Shown piece by piece: positions 296-20,466 of a stretch of DNA of 64,000 nt (position 1 is its first letter; every line of letters starts with the position of its first letter). The notes beneath the pieces were generated by a model that worked only from the letters and a program-made list of their open reading frames with translations, was not told where the DNA came from and did not search any database. This DNA comes from Piscinibacter sp. Lineage in GTDB: Bacteria > Pseudomonadota > Gammaproteobacteria > Burkholderiales > Burkholderiaceae_C. Position numbers and translations under genes: made by a program. The stretch spans positions 1 to 64,000 of the forward strand of contig JAGOAS010000015.1 of assembly GCA_017983795.1 (NCBI GenBank), given 5' to 3'.

Positions 296-870
296 GGCGT
301 CTCCTCGCTGTAGAAGAGCACCAGCCGCGCGGTTGCCTGCAGCTCCTTGGCCTGCGCGTTGGCGCGCTCGAGCTGCAGGCTTTCGAGCGCCGCATGCGGC
401 AGCTCGTTGAGCACCTCGGCGACGAAGCGCCGCACGCCGGCATAACTGCCCGTCAGCGGCAGCGTCGCCTCGACGCGCGTCAGCGCGCCCGCGGTGGCGG
501 CGCCGAGCGAATAGTCGGCGCGCTCCAGGCCCAGGCCGGCGCGCTGCGCGGCCGCGACCAGCTGCTCCAGGTCGCGCCCGCGCTGGCGCGCCGAGGGGAT
601 GTCGGCGGCGGACAGCGGCCCGCGCGCGCCGGCGTCGAAGGCGCGCGGCGCGGGCGCGCCGGCGAGCGCGGCGCGACGGGCCTCCAGCCGCAGCGCGTCG
701 CGCTGCTGCAGCGGACGCAGCTGCCACTGCAGCAGCGCGGCGCACACGAGCAGCAGCAGTGCCACCCAGGCGGGCCGGCCGAGGTGGCGCTGCCACGTGA
801 TGGCCAGCGCGCGCGCGGCCGGCGACGCGCGCCGCAGCCACGTGCGCAGCAGGGCGAGCAGGCGCTTCAC
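292..870 (-). CDS. PilO/GspM-like inner-membrane assembly protein
   Basis: A 192-residue protein with a GTG start at 870 that overlaps the upstream stop (GTGA); its own stop overlaps the next ATG. One transmembrane helix lies near residues 34-50 (PAWVALLLLVCAALLQW) after a basic cytoplasmic N-terminus. Then come a predicted coiled coil (LRPLQQRDALRLEARRAAL) and a ferredoxin-like region containing LPLTGSYAGVRRFVAEVLN, typical of PilO/GspM folds. In such systems PilO pairs with PilN to build the inner-membrane platform between pseudopilus and secretin. Family assignment is from architecture and gene order; sequence similarity in this family is weak. Confidence 0.65.
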   Translation of the reverse strand: MKRLLALLRTWLRRASPAARALAITWQRHLGRPAWVALLLLVCAALLQWQLRPLQQRDALRLEARRAALAGAPAPRAFDAGARGPLSAADIPSARQRGRDLEQLVAAAQRAGLGLERADYSLGAATAGALTRVEATLPLTGSYAGVRRFVAEVLNELPHAALESLQLERANAQAKELQATARLVLFYSEETP

Positions 871-1409
871 GACACCTCCTTCGGCGCCGCCGGCGCGCCG
901 CGCCAGCCGGCCTGGATGACGAAGCGCAGCGGCTGCCCCGGCGTCTCGCGCTCGAGCTGCTGCGTGGTGAGCGCGACGCGCACCAGGCGCGCATCGGCCT
1001 CGAGTTCGTGCAGGTAGGCAAAGAGCGACTTGGCATCGCGTGCCTGGCCGGTGATGCGCACCACGCCGGCCTTGGCATCGGGCTCGAGCTTGAGCAGGCC
1101 GATGTCGCCCTGGCCGTGTTCCTCGAAGGTGGCGAGCAGGTCGCCCCAGGGGGCGCGCAATTCGCCGGCCACGCGCGCGGCCTGCGTGAGGCGCACGCGC
1201 TCCGCTTCGCTGAGCTTGCGCGGCGCCGGCGGCAGCAGCCGCGCGGCCTGCTCGTTCAGGCGGGCGAGCGCCTGGCGGTTGTCCTGCTCGATGCGCCACG
1301 AGGAGAACGCCACGCCGGCCAGCAGCACGGCGGCGAGGCCCGCCAGCGCGATGCCGCCCCAGGGCCGCGGCGCGCCGGCGAGGAAGTCGAGCTGCGGCAG
1401 CGTCTTCAT
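867..1409 (-). CDS. PilN-like inner-membrane assembly protein
   Basis: A 180-residue protein starting at ATG 1409 and coupled by 4-nt overlaps to genes on both sides. A short N-terminal segment with an LDFL motif (PilN proteins carry a related motif that binds PilM) precedes one membrane helix at about residues 15-38. A coiled coil follows (IEQDNRQALARLNEQAARL), then an alpha/beta domain with VVRITGQARDAKSLFAYLHELE, the part that resembles PilN. It should bridge the cytoplasmic PilM-like protein and the periplasmic PilO-like protein. Identification is by architecture and operon order. Confidence 0.7.
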   Translation of the reverse strand: MKTLPQLDFLAGAPRPWGGIALAGLAAVLLAGVAFSSWRIEQDNRQALARLNEQAARLLPPAPRKLSEAERVRLTQAARVAGELRAPWGDLLATFEEHGQGDIGLLKLEPDAKAGVVRITGQARDAKSLFAYLHELEADARLVRVALTTQQLERETPGQPLRFVIQAGWRGAPAAPKEVS

Positions 1410-2182
1410 GCGCCCGCCTCCGCCGCGGCCGCGGGCGCGGGCGACGCGTCGCGCATCAGCAGCGTCCAGCCGTGGGCCTGGGTCATGCGCTCCCAGTGCT
1501 CGCGCTGCTCGGTCGAGCGGCACAGCATCCACACCGCCGGCGGCTGGCTGCTGACGATCGCGCCCTGGAAGGCCACCAGGCGCTGCTCGACCAGGCGCAG
1601 CGCGCGCGGGTCGCAGCGCTCCCAGCTGAGCTCCACCGGCACGCCGCGCTCGATGCGCAGCAGCGTCGAGCCTTCCTCGCGCAGCAGCGCGACGATTGCC
1701 TCGTCGGGCACCTGCCTGGCGAGGTGGCGCAGGTCGTCGAGCAGCTGCAGCTCCACGCGGGCCAGCCGCACGCCGGCCTCGGCCAGCGCACGCTGCCAGG
1801 CCTGCAGATCCCCGGGTTCGATCGCGGCGGCCAGCCACGCGGCCGCGCCGGGCAGGGCCACCGCCTGCACGACCAGGTCCTGGCGGCCCAGCGTGGCGGC
1901 GAAGTGCGTGACGGCGGCCTGGCGCGTGCCGTGCCAGCCGTTGCCGCCCGCGAGCAGCGAGAAGTAGGCGAGCTCGTCGGGCACGCACAGCCGCGCCTGC
2001 GCGGGCAGCGGCTCGGCGCTGCGCTCGCGCAGTGCGCTCAGCGCGGCGGGCAGCGCCTGCGCCGGCGCGCCTTCGCAGCGCACCTCGTCGAGCACGCGGC
2101 GCGACCAGGGCGCGAGCCGCTGCACCGCGGTCGCGCCGCGGCCGAGCTGCACGCTCAGTTCACTCTTCCACGGCCGTGACAC
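1406..2182 (-). CDS. PilM/GspL-like cytoplasmic assembly protein (divergent)
   Basis: A 258-residue soluble protein whose first ATG (2182) lies 23 bases inside the end of gspE. No better start is evident. It opens with KSELSVQLGRGATAVQRL, resembling the first beta hairpin of actin-like PilM/GspL cytoplasmic domains. It is shorter than typical PilM (about 350 residues), and the usual phosphate-binding loops are not obvious. Its place between gspE and the PilN-like gene points to the ring protein joining the ATPase to the membrane platform. Assignment is inference from synteny; the sequence alone would be called hypothetical. Confidence 0.55.
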   Translation of the reverse strand: MSRPWKSELSVQLGRGATAVQRLAPWSRRVLDEVRCEGAPAQALPAALSALRERSAEPLPAQARLCVPDELAYFSLLAGGNGWHGTRQAAVTHFAATLGRQDLVVQAVALPGAAAWLAAAIEPGDLQAWQRALAEAGVRLARVELQLLDDLRHLARQVPDEAIVALLREEGSTLLRIERGVPVELSWERCDPRALRLVEQRLVAFQGAIVSSQPPAVWMLCRSTEQREHWERMTQAHGWTLLMRDASPAPAAAAEAGA

Positions 2183-5552: not shown

Positions 5553-6170
5553 TCAGCGCGAGGCCAGGCGCGCCATCACCTTGGCGACGTAGTCCTGCGT
5601 CTCCGGGTAGGCCGGCACGCGCCGGCCGGCGCGCGCCACCGCGCCTTCGCCGGCGTTGTAGGCAGCCAGCGCGAGCTGCAGGTCGTTGTCGAACTGCGTG
5701 AGCAGCCAGCGCAGGTAGGCCGCGCCGCCGTCGATGTTCTGCTGCACCGCGAATACGTCCTTCACGCCGAAGCGCCGCGCGGTCTCGGGCATCAGCTGCA
5801 TCAGGCCCTTGGCGCCCTTGGGCGACACCGCCTTCGGGTTGAAGCCCGACTCGACGGCGATCACCGCCGCCAGCAGCGACTCGGGCAGGGCATGGCGCTG
5901 CGCCGCGGCGCGGATCTCGCCGGACAGCGGTGCCGCGGCCGGCTGCGGCAGCGCCGCTTCGCTGCGCGGCGCGGCCGCCGCGGGATCGGCCGGCGCCGCC
6001 AGCAGGAGCTCCGGCGCTTCGCTGCTCGCATGGTTGCTGAGCACCAGCGTGCCCTGCGCATCGCTGCCCATGTAGACCTGCGCCTGCGCGGCCGCGCCGA
6101 GCAGCAGCGCCGCCGCGCCGTGCAGCGCGCGTGCGAGGACGATGAGCCGTGGCCGGGTCATGTGCGCCAT
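5553..6170 (-). CDS. Secreted lytic transglycosylase (SLT family, DUF4124-like N-terminus)
   Basis: A 205-residue periplasmic murein hydrolase. Start 6170 (MAHMTRPRLIV) is preferred over the upstream in-frame codons because the signal sequence begins there, with a hydrophobic core and AQAQ cleavage region. The DUF4124-like piece VYMGSDAQGTLVLSNH follows, then an Ala/Pro linker. The goose-lysozyme/SLT fold begins at LPESLLAAVIAVESGFNP, with catalytic Glu near residue 107, GLMQLMPETA and NLxLALAAYNAGEGAV. Such enzymes open peptidoglycan for envelope-spanning machines, fitting its place beside the gsp operon, though it is a separate transcription unit. Confidence 0.9.
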   Translation of the reverse strand: MAHMTRPRLIVLARALHGAAALLLGAAAQAQVYMGSDAQGTLVLSNHASSEAPELLLAAPADPAAAAPRSEAALPQPAAAPLSGEIRAAAQRHALPESLLAAVIAVESGFNPKAVSPKGAKGLMQLMPETARRFGVKDVFAVQQNIDGGAAYLRWLLTQFDNDLQLALAAYNAGEGAVARAGRRVPAYPETQDYVAKVMARLASR

Positions 6171-6316
6171 TGCAGCGCAGGCTCCGGCCCCCTCCAACGG
6201 GCACTCCTCCTCGCCACGCATGGGCAAATACCCTACTCCCCCAGGAGTGAGTGTTCCCGCCACCGCTGCCGCGCTGATGAAATCGCGCCGTCCGATAACA
6301 GAAACATCTGGAAACC

Positions 6317-6996: not shown

Positions 6997-7013
6997 CTTC
7001 ACGCCGACTTCAC
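6997..7013 (+). promoter_or_regulatory. CTTCAC direct repeat upstream of exosortase operon
   Basis: CTTCAC occurs at 6997-7002 and again at 7008-7013, an 11-base period (ACTTCACGCCG ACTTCACAC). Same-face direct repeats of this spacing are typical sites for winged-helix response regulators such as the one ending at 6985. They sit about 95 bases upstream of the VIT/VWA gene. No protein-binding evidence exists beyond this pattern. Confidence 0.3.
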
Positions 7014-7107: not shown

Positions 7108-9189
7108 ATGCGCCGCGTTCGAGGTCCCGTCTTTCCGCTCTTGCGCCACCCCGTGCCGCCGCTGTCGGCGAGCGGCCGGGTGCTGGTCGCCGTGTTGTTC
7201 GCGATCTGGGCCTTCGCCCTCAGCGTGGCCTGGTCGCCGGCCCTCGCCGACGACGGCGAGGCCTTGAAGGCCGAAGGGCCGTACTTCGCCGTCGCCGGTG
7301 ATCCGTCGCTCGACGCGCTGCCGCTGAAGTCGACCAAGGTCGACGTGCGCCTGGCCGGCGTGATCGCCGACGTCACCGTCACGCAGCGCTACACCAACGA
7401 AGGCCAGCGCCCCATCGAGGCGCGCTACGTCTTCCCGGGTTCGACGCACGCCGCGGTGCATGCGATGCAGGTGCGCCTGGGCGGCCGCGTGCTGCACGCG
7501 CAGATCGAGGAGAAGCAGCGCGCGCGCATCCGCCACGAGACCGCCAGGCGCGAGGGCAAGACCAGCGCGCTGCTCGAGCAGGAGCGCCCCAACGTCTTCC
7601 AGATGAACGTGGCCAACATCCTGCCCGGCGACGACGTGCAGGTGGAGCTGCACTACACCGAACTGGTCGTGCCCACCGAGGGCCGCTACGAGTTCGTCTT
7701 CCCCACCGTGGTCGGCCCGCGCTACCACCGCAGCGCGAGCGCCGGCGGCACGAGCAGATTCCCGGCCACCGCGCATCTGAAGGAAGGCGAGGCCTCGCGC
7801 TCGGCTTTCGACCTGCACGTGCACTTCGCCTCGCCGCTGCCGGTGAGCGAGCTGCGCTCGGCCACACATGGCATCGAGGTCAGCGGCGAAGGCACGGGCG
7901 CGGCCGAGGTGGAACTCGTCGATGCTGGCGCGCGCAACGACCGCGACTTCATCCTCACGTACCGCCTCGCCGGCGAGCGCACCGCCACCGGGCTGACGCT
8001 GTTCCGGGGTGACGGTTCGGCCGGCGCGGAGAACTTCTTCCTCGCGGTGGTCGAGCCGCCCAAGGCCATCGCGCCCGCGCAGATCAACCCGCGCGAATAC
8101 GTCTTCGTGGTCGACATCTCCGGCTCCATGCACGGCCAGCCGCTGGCCACCGCCAAGGCGTTGCTGCGCAACCTGATCGGCAACCTGCGCCAGAGCGACA
8201 GCTTCAACGTGCTGCTCTTCTCCGGCAGCAGCCAGATGCTCAGCGCCGCGCCGGTGCCGGCCACGCGCGTCAACATCGAACGCGCCATCGCGGTGATCGA
8301 CCAGGCGCGCGGCGGCGGCTCCACCGAGATCGTGCCGGCGCTCAAGCGCATCGCCGCGCTGCCCAAGGCGGCCGACGTGGCGCGCAGCGTGATCGTCGTC
8401 ACCGACGGCTACGTGACGGTGGAGAACGAGGTCTTCGCGCTGGTGCGCCGCAACCTCGGCAACAGCAACGTATTCGCCTTCGGCATCGGCAGCTCGGTGA
8501 ACCGCCACCTCATCGAAGGCATCGCGCGCGCCGGCCAGGGCGAGCCCTTCATCGTGACCAAGCCCGAGCTCGCCGCCGCGCAGGCCGAGCGCCTGCGCAA
8601 GATGATCGATTCGCCGGTGCTGACCCACCTGCAGGCGCGCTTCGACGGCCTGGAGGTCTACGACCTCGAGCCCGCTTCGCTGACGGCGCTGCCCGACGTG
8701 CTCGGCGGCCGTCCCGTGGTGATCCAGGGCAAGTGGCGCGGCGAGCCGCGCGGCCAGCTGGTGCTCGAAGGCCGTGCGGCGCAGGGCTCGCATGTCGACG
8801 TGGTGCCGGTGGCCGCGCCCGACGTGCAGGCCGGCGCGCTGCGCCAGCTGTGGGCGCGCAGCCGCATCCAGCAGCTCTCCGACCAGGAGGCGCTGGAAGG
8901 CGGCAGCGGCCAGCGCGAGGCCATCACCGCGCTGGGCCTGCGCTACAGCCTGCTCACGCAATACACCAGCTTCATCGCCGTCGACGAAATCGTGCGCACC
9001 AGCGAGGCCGCCGTGCCGGTGAACCAGCCGCTGCCGCTGCCGCAGGGCGTGAGCAATCTCGCCGTGGGTGGTGACGGTGGCGAGGTGGGTGCGGCGGTGC
9101 CCAGCACGCCCGAGCCGGGCGCGTGGCTGTCGCTGCTGGTGGTGCTCGCGCTGGTGGGCGCGGCGCTGGCCAAGCGGAGCAACTGGTGA
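7108..9189 (+). CDS. VIT and von Willebrand A domain protein with PEP-CTERM-type sorting tail
   Basis: A 693-residue exported protein; start 7108 is chosen because an AGGAG site lies just upstream and the signal sequence follows. Order: signal/membrane helix (about 25-47), VIT domain (about 65-195), and a VWA domain (about 330-500) with a perfect metal-ion site D336-x-S338-x-S340 in VVDISGSM. A C-terminal region contains LWARSRIQQLSDQEAL. The last 28 residues form an exosortase signal: STPEP (PEP at 668-670), a hydrophobic helix, then KRSNW. The next gene, overlapping by 4 bases, is an exosortase, so this is probably its dedicated substrate. Function is presumably a surface-displayed adhesive or protein-binding protein. 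Confidence 0.92.
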   Translation: MRRVRGPVFPLLRHPVPPLSASGRVLVAVLFAIWAFALSVAWSPALADDGEALKAEGPYFAVAGDPSLDALPLKSTKVDVRLAGVIADVTVTQRYTNEGQRPIEARYVFPGSTHAAVHAMQVRLGGRVLHAQIEEKQRARIRHETARREGKTSALLEQERPNVFQMNVANILPGDDVQVELHYTELVVPTEGRYEFVFPTVVGPRYHRSASAGGTSRFPATAHLKEGEASRSAFDLHVHFASPLPVSELRSATHGIEVSGEGTGAAEVELVDAGARNDRDFILTYRLAGERTATGLTLFRGDGSAGAENFFLAVVEPPKAIAPAQINPREYVFVVDISGSMHGQPLATAKALLRNLIGNLRQSDSFNVLLFSGSSQMLSAAPVPATRVNIERAIAVIDQARGGGSTEIVPALKRIAALPKAADVARSVIVVTDGYVTVENEVFALVRRNLGNSNVFAFGIGSSVNRHLIEGIARAGQGEPFIVTKPELAAAQAERLRKMIDSPVLTHLQARFDGLEVYDLEPASLTALPDVLGGRPVVIQGKWRGEPRGQLVLEGRAAQGSHVDVVPVAAPDVQAGALRQLWARSRIQQLSDQEALEGGSGQREAITALGLRYSLLTQYTSFIAVDEIVRTSEAAVPVNQPLPLPQGVSNLAVGGDGGEVGAAVPSTPEPGAWLSLLVVLALVGAALAKRSNW

Positions 9190-10019
9190 GCAGCGCCGTC
9201 GTCTCGACCATCGCCTGCCGGCCCACCCATCTGGCGCCGGCCGGCTGGCTGGCCCTGCAGGCGGCTGCGCTGTGGCCGCACGGCGCGTGGATGGCGGCGC
9301 GCGTGCAGGACGGCTCCGACGCACCGCTCGGCCTGGCCGCACTGGCCGCGCTGCTGATGCTGCTGGGCTTGCGCCGCCACACGCTGCGCATCGCACCGCA
9401 CACCGGCTGGCTGGCCGCGGGCGTGGCGCTCACGCTGCTGTCCAACGCCGCGCTGCTGGTCGCGCCGCCGCTGGCCTGCGCGCTGCTCGCCGCGCTGGCG
9501 CTCGGAGCGGCACTGATGGCCTGGCTGCCCACCGACGCGCCGCGCGCCGCGCTGGCCGGCCTGGTGCTGCTCGCGCTGCCCTGGATCGCTTCGCTGCAGT
9601 ACTACGGCGGCTACCCGCTGCGCGTGGTCACCGCGCAGGCCAGTGCGTGGCTGCTGCAGCTCGCCGGCCTCGCTGCCGAGCGCAGCGGCACCGCCATGCT
9701 GGTGCAGGGGCAGCTGGTGATCGTCGACGCGCCCTGCTCGGGCGTGCAGATGGCCTGGATGGCCTGGTTCTGCGCCTGCGCGGTGGCAGGGCTGCTCGCG
9801 CTGCGCGACGGCGTGTTCCTGCGCCGCCTGCCGTGGATCGGCGCGATCGTGCTCGCCGGCAACGTGCTGCGCAACAGCCTGCTGGTGGCGCTCGAAGCGC
9901 GCCCGCAGGGGCTCGCCGCTTCGATGCACGAAGGCATCGGCCTGATCGCGCTGGCGCTGGTGTGCGCCGCGGTGGTCGCGGTGATGACACGAGGAGTGCG
10001 GCATGAAGCGCGCTGCTGA
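9186..10019 (+). CDS. Exosortase, dedicated type (possibly XrtQ class)
   Basis: A 277-residue polytopic membrane protein. The GTG start at 9186 overlaps the VIT/VWA stop (GTGA). About eight hydrophobic helices enclose the exosortase active-site triad: C184 in DAPCSGVQM, R229 in GNVLRNSLLV and H248 in MHEGIGL. Exosortases process C-terminal PEP-CTERM tails in the inner membrane by a transpeptidase-like mechanism. The immediate neighbour carries such a tail, and no other PEP-CTERM protein was found in the window. No EPS biosynthesis genes adjoin it, unlike EpsH-type exosortases. The exact class name needs a profile search. Confidence 0.88.
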   Translation: MSSAVVSTIACRPTHLAPAGWLALQAAALWPHGAWMAARVQDGSDAPLGLAALAALLMLLGLRRHTLRIAPHTGWLAAGVALTLLSNAALLVAPPLACALLAALALGAALMAWLPTDAPRAALAGLVLLALPWIASLQYYGGYPLRVVTAQASAWLLQLAGLAAERSGTAMLVQGQLVIVDAPCSGVQMAWMAWFCACAVAGLLALRDGVFLRRLPWIGAIVLAGNVLRNSLLVALEARPQGLAASMHEGIGLIALALVCAAVVAVMTRGVRHEARC

Positions 10020-10539
10020 ACTCTGGCGGCGCCACTGGCCGGCGTTTGCCGTGCTGCTGCTGGCGCTGGCCGCGGCGCTGCCGCTGCTCTCGGCGCCGCG
10101 CGCCGCGCCAGTGGCGCGCCACGTCGAGTGGCCGCGCGAGTGGGAGGGCCGCGCGCTGCGGCCGCTCGCGCTCAGCGAAGTCGAGCAGCGTTTTGCGGCG
10201 CGCTTTCCCGGCGCGATCGCGCGCTTCTCCGATGGCGAGCGCGTGCTGGTGCTGCGCCGCGTCAGCGAGCCGACGCGCATGCTGCACCCGGCCGCCGATT
10301 GTTTTCGCGGCCTGGGCTGGCGCATCCAGCGCACGCAGCTCGAACGCGACGCGCAGCAACGCCTGTGGCGCTGCTTCGAGGCCGAGGGGCGCGATGGCCA
10401 GCGCCTGCGCGTGTGCGAACGCATCGCGGCCGATGACGACGGCAGCTCCTTCGTCGATGCGTCCTCGTGGTTCTGGGCCGCGGCGCTGGGCCGGTCGAAA
10501 GGGCCGTGGCAGGCCGTCACCGTGGTGGAGGCGATGTGA
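10003..10539 (+). CDS. Exosortase-associated EpsI-like protein
   Basis: A 178-residue protein starting at ATG 10003, 17 bases inside the exosortase gene. It has one N-terminal membrane helix (about 12-32), then a periplasmic domain with HPAADCFRGLGWRIQ and a paired Cys in LWRCFEAEGRDGQ. The HPxxDCxRGxGW motif matches the core of EpsI/exosortase-associated proteins, which are often fused to or encoded beside exosortases. Its role in sorting is not established. It may act on the processed product or be a partner subunit. It ends ATGTGA, overlapping the GTG start of the next gene. Confidence 0.75.
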   Translation: MKRAAELWRRHWPAFAVLLLALAAALPLLSAPRAAPVARHVEWPREWEGRALRPLALSEVEQRFAARFPGAIARFSDGERVLVLRRVSEPTRMLHPAADCFRGLGWRIQRTQLERDAQQRLWRCFEAEGRDGQRLRVCERIAADDDGSSFVDASSWFWAAALGRSKGPWQAVTVVEAM

Positions 10540-11798
10540 TCAAGAAGCTGCTCGGATTCCTGGTCGGCGTGCTGCTCGCGCTCGCGCTGGCCGCGACGCT
10601 GCTGGCGACGCTCGCCTGGCACGCGCTCGCGCCGCAGCCGGGCGAGTGGGCCACCGCGCTGCACATCGGCCCCTTCGAGCGCCAGGCCAGCGTGCCCACG
10701 CTGCTGCGCTGGGCCACGCACCCGCTCGCGCTGCCGGCACTCGACGGTCGCCGCATCGCCGGCTGGCGGCTGAGGGCCGAGGGCGCGCATCGCCTCGTCG
10801 CGCGTTGCGCACCCTGCCGCGTGCAGCTGGCCGCGCTGGGCCCGCAGCCCTTGCTGATCGACGAAGCGCGCCTGAGCGTCGAAGTGCGCGGCGCCGACCG
10901 CTACGACGGCACGCTGCGCCTGGGCGCCGGCGAGCGCCCGGCCAGCATCGCCTGGCACGCCGAGCTCGAGCGCGAAGGCCTGGCCGTGCAGGCCGAGTTG
11001 CCACCCACGCCGCTGGCGCGCGTGCTGTCGGCCTTCGCGGCTTCGCTGCCCGAGCTGCAGCGCGCGCAGATCGAGGGCAGCGTGGCCTTGAAGCTCGATG
11101 CGACGCTTGGCGCCGCGGGCTGGCGGGTCACGAAGCTGAAGCCGACGCTGGCGGACGTGAGCGTCGCCGGCCTGGGCACCGAGGCGCTGCGCGATGTCGA
11201 CGTGGCGCAGCGCTGCCGCCCGCAGCCCGCGGGCGGGCGCATCGAGGGCTGGATCCAGAACGCGGTGATCGCCGCCGAAGACCAGCGCTTCTTCGAGCAC
11301 CCGGGCTACGAGCTCGAGGCCTGGGTCACGGTGTTCAAGGCCAACCAGCGCGAGGGCGAGCCGCTGCAGGGCGCCAGCACCATCACCCAGCAGCTCGCCA
11401 AGCTGCTCTACACCGGCGACGAGCGCGACGCCGCGCGCAAGCTGCGCGAGTGGTTGTATGCGGCGGAGATGGAGCGCACGCTCGGCAAGGGCCGCATCCT
11501 GCAGCTCTACCTCGCGCTGCTGCCCTGGGGCGACGGCATCTGCGGCGCCGAAGCCGCGGCGCGCCACCACCTCGGCAAGAGCGCCAGCCAGCTCAAGCCG
11601 CGCGAAGCCGCCTGGCTGGCCAGCCTGCTGATCAACCCCGACCAGCAGCTGCGCCGCTGGAGCAGCGACGAGGCCGCCGCGCGCGAGCGCGCCGCCTGGG
11701 TGCTCAAGGGCATACGCCGGCTGCCGCGCGAGCGCCGCGAGGCCGAGCTCGACGCGCTGGTGAGCTGGCGCCCGCCGGTGGGGCGCGCCGCGCACTGA
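10536..11798 (+). CDS. Monofunctional GT51 peptidoglycan glycosyltransferase in the exosortase operon
   Basis: A 420-residue protein with GTG start 10536 overlapping the EpsI-like stop. An N-terminal membrane helix (about 5-29) is followed by about 200 residues of unassigned periplasmic sequence including a CAPC pair (91-94). The GT51 domain begins near 232: IQNAVIAAEDQRFFEHPG (catalytic Glu E248), QGASTITQQLAK (279-289), and RKLREWLYAAEMERTLGKGRILQLYL. No penicillin-binding transpeptidase domain follows, so it polymerises glycan strands only. Monofunctional MtgA is about 240 residues, so the N-terminal extension is unusual. Tight coupling suggests it works with the exosortase products. Confidence 0.88.
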   Translation: MIKKLLGFLVGVLLALALAATLLATLAWHALAPQPGEWATALHIGPFERQASVPTLLRWATHPLALPALDGRRIAGWRLRAEGAHRLVARCAPCRVQLAALGPQPLLIDEARLSVEVRGADRYDGTLRLGAGERPASIAWHAELEREGLAVQAELPPTPLARVLSAFAASLPELQRAQIEGSVALKLDATLGAAGWRVTKLKPTLADVSVAGLGTEALRDVDVAQRCRPQPAGGRIEGWIQNAVIAAEDQRFFEHPGYELEAWVTVFKANQREGEPLQGASTITQQLAKLLYTGDERDAARKLREWLYAAEMERTLGKGRILQLYLALLPWGDGICGAEAAARHHLGKSASQLKPREAAWLASLLINPDQQLRRWSSDEAAARERAAWVLKGIRRLPRERREAELDALVSWRPPVGRAAH

Positions 11799-11870
11799 GG
11801 GAGTGACGATCGGCCGCGCGTCCGCATAATGCCGCGTGCTAACACCACAAGTCAGCGGAGGACGATGGCG

Positions 11871-13376
11871 ATGAAGGTCGGGAAGCAGTCACTGCGTCGT
11901 GGAGTCTGGGTGGCCTGCCTGGCCTTGTCGGCCTGCGGCGGGGGAGGCGGCGGCGGAGGAGGAGGGGGTGGTGGTGGCGGCGGCGGCGGCCAGGGCACCG
12001 GCACCGCGGCCTTGGCGCAGCAATGCTCGGCCTTCAACCCCTACCGCGCCGACGCGCGCAGCGCCACCACGGCCGGCACGCTGGGTACGGAGAAGAGCTG
12101 GGTGCGCGCCTACTTCGACGAAGCCTATCTCTGGTACAGCGAAGTGCCCGTGGTCGACGCGTCTGCTGCGGCCTACAGCAACGACACCGCGACGGGCTTC
12201 TACACCTCCATCGACGGCTATTTCGAGGCCTTGAAGGTCACGGCCAAGGATCGCTTCAGCTTCACCTACCCCACGAAGGCCTGGGACACGCTGTTCCAGT
12301 CCGGGCAGATGGTGGGCGACGGCATCCAGTGGCACTACGACTCGCCCACGCCGCCGCGCAACATGCGCGTGGTATTCGTGGAGCCCGGCTCGCCCGCGGC
12401 CAGCGCCGGCGTGCAGCGCGGCGACACCCTGGTGTCGGTGAACGGCATCTCGGCCGACGACAGCTCGCCGGCCGGCGTGGCGGTGCTCAACGAGGCCTTG
12501 TTCGGTTCGACCACCAGCGCCTACAGCTACGTGTTCAGCCGTGCCGGCGTGACGCAGAGTGCCAAGTCCATCGCCAAGCTCGCCAACCTCGTCACCGACC
12601 CGGTGCCGCAGACCAGCGTGCTGACCGATTCGAACGGCGCCAAGATCGGCTACCTGCTCTTCAACGACCACATCGCCACGGCCGAGGGCCGCTTGAGCAC
12701 GGCGATCGACGCCCTCAAGGCGCAGAACGTCACCGACCTGGTGCTCGACCTGCGCTACAACGGCGGCGGCTATCTCTACATCGCCAGCGAACTCGCCTAC
12801 ATGATCGCCGGCCCGGCGCGCACCGCCGGCAAGAGCTTCGAGACGCTGCGCTACAACGCCAAGCGCAGCGCGCAGAACGAGAGCACGCCGTTCTACGACA
12901 CCTCCACGCAGAACCAGGCGCTGCCCACGCTCAACCTGGGCCGCGTCTACGTGCTGACCGGCGCGGGCACCTGCTCGGCGAGCGAGTCCATCATCAACAG
13001 CCTGGAGGGCGTGGACGTCACGGTGCAGCGCATCGGCGCCACCACCTGCGGCAAGCCCTACGGCTTCCAGGCGCGCGACAACTGCGGCATCTCCTATTTC
13101 CCCATCGAGTTCCAGGGCGTCAACGCCAAGGGCTGGGGCGACTACGCGAGCGGCTTCACGCCCACCTGCACGGTGGCCGACGATCTGGAGCACCCGCTCG
13201 GCAATCCGGCCGAGGCGCGCCTCGCGGCCGCGCTCACGCTGCGCGCCAGCGGCGCCTGCCCGGCAGGCTCGGAGGCCCGGGCGCAGCCGAGCCGCGTGAC
13301 GGCGGCACTGGACAGCGCCGGCGCGCTGGTCAAGCACCCGGTGCGCGAGAGCGCCTACCGCGGCGGGCGCGAGTGA
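11871..13376 (+). CDS. S41-family C-terminal processing protease lipoprotein with polyglycine linker
   Basis: A 501-residue lipoprotein. Start 11871 is preferred because GGAGGA lies eight bases before it; ATG 11865 is too close. Signal peptide with lipobox LSAC (C22), then 18 consecutive glycines (23-40). A PDZ domain spans about 160-240 (VVFVEPGSPAASAGVQRGDTLVSVNG). The S41 core has DLRYNGGG (293-300), probable catalytic S369 in TCSASES and K395 in CGKPYG. Such proteases clip C-termini in the periplasm. It follows the exosortase operon by 72 bases but looks like its own unit. The polyglycine stretch probably tethers the catalytic body away from the membrane. Confidence 0.9.
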   Translation: MKVGKQSLRRGVWVACLALSACGGGGGGGGGGGGGGGGGGQGTGTAALAQQCSAFNPYRADARSATTAGTLGTEKSWVRAYFDEAYLWYSEVPVVDASAAAYSNDTATGFYTSIDGYFEALKVTAKDRFSFTYPTKAWDTLFQSGQMVGDGIQWHYDSPTPPRNMRVVFVEPGSPAASAGVQRGDTLVSVNGISADDSSPAGVAVLNEALFGSTTSAYSYVFSRAGVTQSAKSIAKLANLVTDPVPQTSVLTDSNGAKIGYLLFNDHIATAEGRLSTAIDALKAQNVTDLVLDLRYNGGGYLYIASELAYMIAGPARTAGKSFETLRYNAKRSAQNESTPFYDTSTQNQALPTLNLGRVYVLTGAGTCSASESIINSLEGVDVTVQRIGATTCGKPYGFQARDNCGISYFPIEFQGVNAKGWGDYASGFTPTCTVADDLEHPLGNPAEARLAAALTLRASGACPAGSEARAQPSRVTAALDSAGALVKHPVRESAYRGGRE

Positions 13377-19470: not shown

Positions 19471-20466
19471 TCAGTTCGGATGCGCCTCGGCGGCTTCGGG
19501 GCCGGTGCCCGAGCGCAGCGCCCACAGCACGCCGGCCACCAGCAGCACGATGCCGGCCAGCGTGGGCGTGGCCGGCCAGTGGCCGCGCAGCACGAAGGCA
19601 TAGGCCAGCGCCGAGAGCGTCTCGAATACGATCAGCTGGCCGGCGATGGTGGGCGGCAGGCGCTGGCTGGCCTCGTTCCAGCACAGCGTGCCGAGCCAGG
19701 AGGCGAGCAGGCCGATGGCCGCCATCAGGGTGACGAAGAACCACGGCCGCGGGCCGAAGGGCATGGCGAAGTCCACGCCGCTGGCCGCGAACCAGGCCCA
19801 GGTGAGCGCATAGCCGAGCAGCGCCAGCGGCAGCGTGGCCAGGCCCTGCGCCGTGGCCCAGCCGCGCGGGCTGCGATCCGGGTGGGCGCGCAGCCACTCG
19901 GCGTTGCGGATCGGGTACCAGGTCCAGCAGGCCACCGCGCCCACCGCGAGCAGCGCGCCGAGCGCGTAGCGGCCGAGATCGGCGCCCGGGTCGGCGCGCA
20001 GCCGCTCCAGCTCGACCTGGTTGACCAGCGCGATGCCCAGCGCGATCAGCATCAGCGAGGGCGCCATCTGGCGCCAGCGCAGCGGCGCCTCGCGGCGCGT
20101 GCCGGCGCGGTGGCCGCGCGCCTTGGCGGTGATGGCGATCACCACCGGCAGCGTGCCGATGATCATGGTCGGCAGCGGCCCGCCGGCGCGCTGGATGGCG
20201 CTGGCGAGGAACAGGTAGTAGACGACGTTGCCCACCAGCGCCAGGCGCAGCGCCTCGCGCCAGTCGGCGCGCGTGAGCTGGCGCAGCGTGGCGCGGTCGA
20301 ACCAGGCCAGCGGCAGCGCGATCAGGCCGAAGGCGAGGTAGCGGCCGAAGCTCTGCAGTGCGGCCGGGTACTCGGGCAGCAGCAGCGGGCCGACGAAGAC
20401 CAGGCCCCACATCAGGCCGGCGGCGAGGGCGAACAGGGTTCCGGAGAAGACAGGGGCGGCGAACAT
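19471..20466 (-). CDS. EamA/DMT-superfamily transporter
   Basis: A 331-residue membrane protein with about ten hydrophobic helices arranged as two EamA-like halves. The first is around SGTLFALAAGLMWGLVFVGP to TLPVVIAITAKARG; the second runs from YALGALLAVGAVACWTWYPI to LAGIVLLVAGVLWALR. ATG 20466 is used; a GTG two codons upstream is also in frame. Members export metabolites, amino acids or drugs; the substrate cannot be inferred. The AraC regulator gene ends 15 bases upstream on the same strand, so the regulator and transporter may be one operon. Confidence 0.85.
   Translation of the reverse strand: MFAAPVFSGTLFALAAGLMWGLVFVGPLLLPEYPAALQSFGRYLAFGLIALPLAWFDRATLRQLTRADWREALRLALVGNVVYYLFLASAIQRAGGPLPTMIIGTLPVVIAITAKARGHRAGTRREAPLRWRQMAPSLMLIALGIALVNQVELERLRADPGADLGRYALGALLAVGAVACWTWYPIRNAEWLRAHPDRSPRGWATAQGLATLPLALLGYALTWAWFAASGVDFAMPFGPRPWFFVTLMAAIGLLASWLGTLCWNEASQRLPPTIAGQLIVFETLSALAYAFVLRGHWPATPTLAGIVLLVAGVLWALRSGTGPEAAEAHPN

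Follow-up and report, generated by a model that had tools for sequence, protein, structure and literature searches.

A conserved four-gene operon of the exosortase XrtQ, with a GT51 glycosyltransferase and a predicted CreB binding site, in Piscinibacter sp. and related bacteria

Several described systems resemble the operon reported here, each of them in part. The PEP-CTERM/EpsH proposal, together with EpsI, goes back to PMC1569441, and that paper also describes lipid II as the acceptor of classical sortases; background on exosortases is given in PMC12188702. The classical EpsH/PEP-CTERM (XrtA) systems share the tail architecture and the exosortase superfamily with our locus, whereas the XrtT (NF033770) and XrtN/TIGR04477 systems combine an exosortase and an EpsI-like part with a VIT protein. 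The system that an NCBI model title names "Proteobacterial dedicated sortase system" (target TIGR03788, kinase TIGR03785, regulator TIGR03787) has a target of the VIT/VWA superfamily and an accompanying two-component system, but its processing enzyme is a sortase, and in the operon described here an exosortase stands in its place. To our knowledge, little is settled about the acceptors to which exosortases attach their substrates, or about the timing of this step. The exosortase of this operon belongs to a known family, XrtQ; its association with a VIT/VWA protein, an EpsI-like protein, a GT51 glycosyltransferase and a CreB tag, and the control that this implies, were not found described in the open-access literature under the terms searched.

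The window, that is, the whole stretch of DNA analysed, comprises 64,000 nt of contig JAGOAS010000015.1 of Piscinibacter sp. Four intact genes were found on its forward strand at 7108-11798, coding in this order for the VIT/VWA protein, the exosortase, the EpsI-like protein and the GT51 glycosyltransferase, with successive overlaps of 4, 17 and 4 nt; four overlapping genes of these kinds had been proposed in the original prediction, which was made from the sequence alone. Upstream, the operon is flanked by T2SS E/F/G-like frames (identified by eye), an SLT and a response regulator, and downstream by an S41 peptidase. No polysaccharide genes were seen among the flanking genes inspected, in agreement with the absence of polysaccharide-export genes noted originally and as a difference from the XrtA systems. 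The regulator and the S41 peptidase of the window were not conserved at other XrtQ loci. The regulator, a lone QseB-like gene, stops 12 nt before the cre tag described below and could read through into the operon, a point against the CreB reading.

The exosortase gene (9186-10019, + strand) was assigned to XrtQ, since its product scored 324 bits with NF012182 (cut-off 270) and the next models, XrtT, XrtO and XrtN, reached 36-37 bits; the profile search thereby put a name to the established family that had been claimed. Its frame is open from 9123, and the likely start is the GTG at 9186, which overlaps the VIT/VWA stop. The predicted residues C184, R229 and H248 fit this start (they are C205, R250 and H269 in the longer frame), and the Cys/Arg/His triad was invariant in 41/41 aligned XrtQ proteins. 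XrtQ was the sole exosortase match in the genome (PF09721, E 0.001).

The VIT/VWA gene (7108-9189, + strand) starts with the ATG at 7108, preceded by AGGAG. Its product (PF08487, 114.9 bits; PF13768, 65.4 bits) shows a signal peptide, recognized by eye, a VIT domain, a VWA domain with a DxSxS MIDAS, conserved in all 40 rows with letters at that position out of 41 aligned, and a C-terminal tail. With 412 bits against a cut-off of 551.65 for TIGR03788, the protein can be classed, by its profile score, as a relative and not a member of the sortase targets. The tail VPSTPEPGAWLSLLVVLALVGAALAKRSNW (9097-9189 including the stop, + strand) reads VPSTPEP-helix-AKRSNW, so that the PEP motif, the hydrophobic helix and the basic end are all present. 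It scored just under the profile cut-offs, with 14.2 against 16 for TIGR02595 and, for PF07589 (cut-off 20.7), 15.7 in the protein scan and 19.9 in the genome scan. The PEP-CTERM-type tail that had been announced is accordingly there in architecture, and from its sequence it is best described as a variant PEP-CTERM tail. Of the 79 VIT/VWA frames identified in the named loci (the best 80 of 240 confirmed relatives), 78 had an xxxPEP-like tail and 59 had PSTPEP.

The assignment of a single substrate to this exosortase was likewise examined. The VIT/VWA tail was the top PEP-CTERM match in the genome (19.9 bits), followed by a partial match of 14.1 bits, and no better-fitting PEP-CTERM protein was found elsewhere in it. 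Between 0 and 2 PEP-CTERM matches per genome (PF07589 at E 0.1) were obtained in 13 genomes with XrtQ as the only exosortase, few in comparison with XrtA systems, versus 2-36 in seven genomes with a second exosortase. However, in 7 of those 13 genomes PF07589 failed to detect even the tail of the VIT/VWA protein (the sole match lay elsewhere in G017, G020 and G071, and G035, G047, G105 and G126 had none) and could therefore also miss other XrtQ-type tails; in G098, another XrtQ-only genome, a second match of 32.4 bits exceeded the VIT/VWA tail (20.9). One VIT/VWA substrate per XrtQ is likely, given the sole exosortase and the lack of a better match in the host genome, and the missed tails and G098 weaken this part of the original prediction.

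The EpsI-like protein (10003-10539, + strand), a putative periplasmic partner, consists of one TM-length helix and an alpha/beta domain (structure model, pLDDT 94.0) and aligns to the C-terminal part of XrtT with 47.6 bits. PF11984 (DUF3485) gave no match in the window protein and weak matches in 2 of 56 aligned members (best E 0.011). The last gene (10536-11798, + strand) encodes a monofunctional GT51 glycosyltransferase which passed the PF00912 cut-off. It resembles the monofunctional transglycosylases of TIGR02070 in its N-terminal TM-length helix, its GT51 domain and the invariant E248 and E305 (41/41), which we take to be the catalytic Glu residues. It differs from them in its score (141 against 182.65 bits), in a private, beta-rich N-terminal domain of ~190 residues (10638-11225, + strand) and in four invariant Cys, C91, C94 and C227 in this domain and C336 in the GT51 part. 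A strong match to the N-terminal domain was obtained in 46 of 49 strong-XrtQ genomes versus 2 of 250 others (both, 46; XrtQ only, 3; domain only, 2; neither, 248); the domain is almost confined to XrtQ genomes.

The conservation of the arrangement was analyzed in 106 distinct loci, including the window and with duplicates removed. VIT/VWA adjoined XrtQ in 105 of them, the EpsI-like gene in 106 (in 16 it shared a single open frame with XrtQ) and GT51 in 93; GT51 was absent with room for it in 10, and 3 reached a contig edge. The four-gene set recurred in full in 93 of the 103 loci not ending too soon, which answers the neighbourhood survey suggested with the original prediction. All four genes were present in the same order in 30/30 short XrtQ loci. 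In 40 longer loci, which include the genomes of those 30, VIT/VWA and XrtQ were present in 40 each, GT51 in 39 (L105 lacks it) and the EpsI-like gene in 39 by BLAST, the remaining one (L092) having an in-frame stop. Among the best 80 of 240 confirmed relatives, where close relatives weigh heavily, VIT/VWA was found in 79 (L182 begins at a contig edge), the EpsI-like gene in 80 and GT51 in 69; the nearest of these were mostly Piscinibacter, others came from Variovorax, Rhizobacter, Methylibium, Caldimonas, Ottowia and Azoarcus MAGs, and more distant ones from Panacagrimonas and Agitococcus. When the loci were clustered at 70% XRT identity, GT51 was present in 33 of the 39 clusters and absent in 6; where loci lacking GT51 were inspected, the genes that came next looked unrelated. 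At E 0.001, XrtQ was detected in 55 of the 299 family genomes searched, 46 of which scored above the cut-off; the phylum draw of 398 genomes yielded 15, with 5 above it.

The GT51 gene was also found on its own. In the complete genome G129, a full-length GT51 gene lies behind a cre tag without VIT/VWA, XrtQ and EpsI, the exact tag following creC ~340 nt before the aligned GT51 start; in the MAG G266, which lacks XrtQ, a tag is located ~0.3 kb before a GT51 gene missing model positions 254-359, in the catalytic part. GT51 is thus a conserved, usual but separable fourth part of the module, the core of which is VIT/VWA, XrtQ and EpsI.

Furthermore, a candidate binding site for the regulator CreB was located in front of the operon. 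The cre tag, printed as TTCACN6TTCAC in PMC4689548, has its sole exact match in the window at 6998-7013 (+ strand, TTCACGCCGACTTCAC), and its end lies 95 nt upstream of the ATG of VIT/VWA; three matches with up to one mismatch were obtained in the window versus 0.76 expected. An exact tag was present upstream of VIT/VWA in 87 of the 96 usable distinct loci (106 minus 10 with an edge or a short VIT/VWA), one mismatch occurred in 7, and the tag was absent (two mismatches) in L124 and L217. Control pieces drawn at random from the same loci gave 0 exact and 23 one-mismatch tags in 2,733. Within the 1,591,917 bases of the loci, 101 of the 103 exact tags, of which some loci contribute more than one, fell within 420 nt upstream of VIT/VWA, and the reversed pattern was found once. 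With one locus per 70% cluster, the tag was exact in 30 of 35 usable loci and had one mismatch in 3; without removal of duplicates, it was present in 89 of 114 loci (control, 0.1%), or 91 when a longer stretch was used. Exact tags in four whole genomes numbered 2, 6, 3 and 5 versus 2, 3, 1 and 0 for the reversed pattern, the host having two of each, and these four counts revealed no wider cre-tag regulon. Such genome-wide counts prove nothing alone; the evidence is carried by position and conservation.

The presence of the cognate regulators was consistent with this tag. A creC gene (E 1e-100 or better) was found in 48 of 49 strong-XrtQ genomes, the exception (G104) being 76% complete, versus 74 of 250 others. 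The host creC is on contig C32 (E 4.1e-171) with an adjoining creB-like frame and with no exact tag in this creBC stretch, and it scored 790 bits on a profile of XrtQ-linked kinases, whereas seven creC from genomes without XrtQ scored 373-441. In the host, creBC is thus on a separate contig, and in three congeners it lies ~40-45 kb from the operon. Of 99 loci, 53 encoded a CreC-like kinase within the upstream DNA retrieved, and none was found in 35 loci having more than 5 kb of such DNA. In 20 loci the kinase gene was less than 600 nt away and directly followed by the operon, and a tag (up to one mismatch) lay between it and VIT/VWA in 20/20. The named regulators near XrtQ loci were all above the cut-off (CreC, 598 and 575 bits; CreB, 305 bits), and the kinase and regulator of L139 scored 598 and 305 bits as CreC and CreB versus 116 and 141 as TIGR03785 and TIGR03787. 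CreB-like and CreC-like genes, under the cut-off, also adjoin the XrtT-VIT/VWA pair of L216, although the XrtT/XrtN loci seen (L213, L215 and L216) lack a GT51 of the operon's kind. In seven chosen XrtQ-less creBC regions, an exact tag preceded creD (PF06123, 429-472 bits) in six, and in three of them (L239, L241 and L242) the tag and creD directly follow creC; hence, within this family the tag can be taken for a site of CreB. Unlike in the known CreBC regulon, the output here would be an exosortase operon and not CreD.

The signals reported for CreBC vary by species. Responses have been described to the loss of PBP4 (PMC2654508) and to metabolic signals or peptidoglycan stress (PMC4689548), metabolic ones in the case of E. 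coli (PMC4689548), where CreBC genes are also induced by colicin M, a lipid II hydrolase (PMC3599342). In S. maltophilia, according to PMC4689548, β-lactams barely shift the creD promoter and the loss of CreBC raised creD expression.

The module is real, conserved and CreB-tagged. As to its joint function, we judge it fairly probable, from sequence evidence, that it is an envelope-stress module switched by CreB, which serves to export and process a single VIT/VWA protein while supplying additional glycan-polymerizing capacity. Activated CreB would bind the tag, as suggested by known CreB sites, and would turn on the four genes. Sec would export the VIT/VWA protein, whose PxTPEP-helix-basic tail would retain it in the inner membrane. 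By analogy with its family, XrtQ would cleave this tail by means of the triad, the protein being released or handed to an acceptor; by the same family logic, the EpsI-like protein would be the periplasmic partner of XrtQ. In the same cells and under the same switch, GT51, anchored in the membrane and with an intact catalytic part as judged from its sequence, would polymerize lipid II and add glycan strands at the stressed wall, and its private N-terminal domain may recruit the enzyme to a site or partner.

The original prediction, of a self-contained machine in which peptidoglycan synthesis is built in, was borne out in part, by the recurring four-gene set and the single exosortase, and neither of the two observations named in advance as refuting it was made. 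Its "built in" synthesis was not supported as worded, as GT51 is missing from 10 loci and stands alone in G129 and G266, and "self-contained" overlooked the CreB tag as well as creBC. The host genome has four other GT51 places. This separability bears on the reading in which the VIT/VWA-XrtQ-EpsI and GT51 halves obey one CreB signal and never act on each other: each half is kept alone behind an exact tag, the former in L105 and the latter in G129 (its locus being L211). We nevertheless regard it as rather unlikely, in view of the 4-nt gene overlap and of the co-occurrence of the N-terminal domain with XrtQ, far tighter than that of creC; in the other genome with GT51 alone, the MAG G266, the copy lacks part of the catalytic domain. 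That the GT51 neighbour of an ordinary exosortase locus reflects chance or lineage drag is very improbable: XrtQ is a named family and exosortases with VIT targets are already on record (TIGR04477), but GT51 persists in most of the identity clusters, its N-terminal domain is specific, and the genes flanking the operon in the window are not kept.

A closer, sortase-like coupling, in which XrtQ would transfer the cut VIT/VWA protein to lipid II or to the GT51 product and GT51 would build the conjugate into glycan, resulting in covalent wall anchoring, appears doubtful. It would fit the position of GT51 as the next gene in most loci, the use of lipid II by sortases, the resemblance of the VIT/VWA protein to a dedicated sortase target and the trees built from 57 loci for each of the four proteins, which have many supported splits in common (20 for XRT-GT51), with XRT-GT51 distances correlating at r 0.84. 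Nevertheless, the correlations for VIT-XRT (0.82) and VIT-GT51 (0.83) are similar, so this value shows common inheritance only; the 10 loci without GT51 and the GT51 of G129 without XrtQ also speak against the coupling, though other GT51s could serve in the former. Moreover, we know of no proven acceptor for any bacterial exosortase. Its most specific form, a Gram-negative counterpart of sortase anchoring in which CreB-controlled XrtQ joins VIT/VWA to lipid II and GT51 polymerizes the conjugate at damaged sites, seems at least as doubtful; if it were true, the exosortase acceptor would be a cell-wall precursor.

The CreB-switched module that we favour pairs a single enzyme and its one partner with a single likely substrate, and joins to them a linked lipid II-type polymerase and a stress regulator known by name, which makes the question of the exosortase acceptor testable. 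The cre tag in the promoter hints that exosortase processing is tied to cell-wall building, and the module also points to an output for CreBC in many environmental members of the family.

In the window, the genes encoding the VIT/VWA protein, the XrtQ exosortase, the EpsI-like protein and the GT51 glycosyltransferase are accompanied by an S41 peptidase gene (11829-13376, plus strand), the product of which carries a lipobox-like cysteine and then a long poly-glycine run. A gene for an SLT lytic transglycosylase (PF01464) was located at 5553-6263 on the minus strand, divergent to the response regulator gene. A tRNA-Gly (gcc) was also predicted by ARAGORN at 19771-19869 (minus strand; 99 nt, anticodon position 39), and this prediction may be false, given its unusual length.

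When the frames were clustered, the GT51 cluster took in 49 upstream minus-strand frames. In one Variovorax, a PBP1A-type gene (GT51 plus transpeptidase) was found upstream of the operon and divergent from it (L191:3149-5584, minus strand).

Incomplete copies were observed at two of the compared loci. At L218 (genome G027), genes for a kinase and a regulator of the CreBC kind were followed by an XrtQ fragment only, and an exact cre tag, the CreB binding site motif TTCACN6TTCAC, was still present; at this locus, the operon appears to be in decay. The GT51 frame of L212 (G266; 580-1965, minus strand) lacked model positions 254-359, which make up most of the catalytic part, while the extra beta-rich N-terminal domain and the C-terminal end were retained in frame. 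This gap reflects either decay or an assembly error.

Exosortases distantly similar to XrtQ were found in L213 (G366) and L215 (G522), together with an EpsI-like gene and a PEP-tailed VIT protein closest to the XrtN type, below cut-off. No GT51 match was obtained in these two loci.

At L216 (G553), an exosortase of another family, XrtT, had an EpsI-like part fused to it and adjoined a VIT/VWA protein, which in the profile comparison scored 435 bits, below cut-off, against TIGR03788 (proteobacterial dedicated sortase target). Judged by sequence, this locus is a second exosortase-VIT-CreBC-like association, in which the CreB-like (222 bits) and CreC-like (155 bits) matches were both below cut-off.
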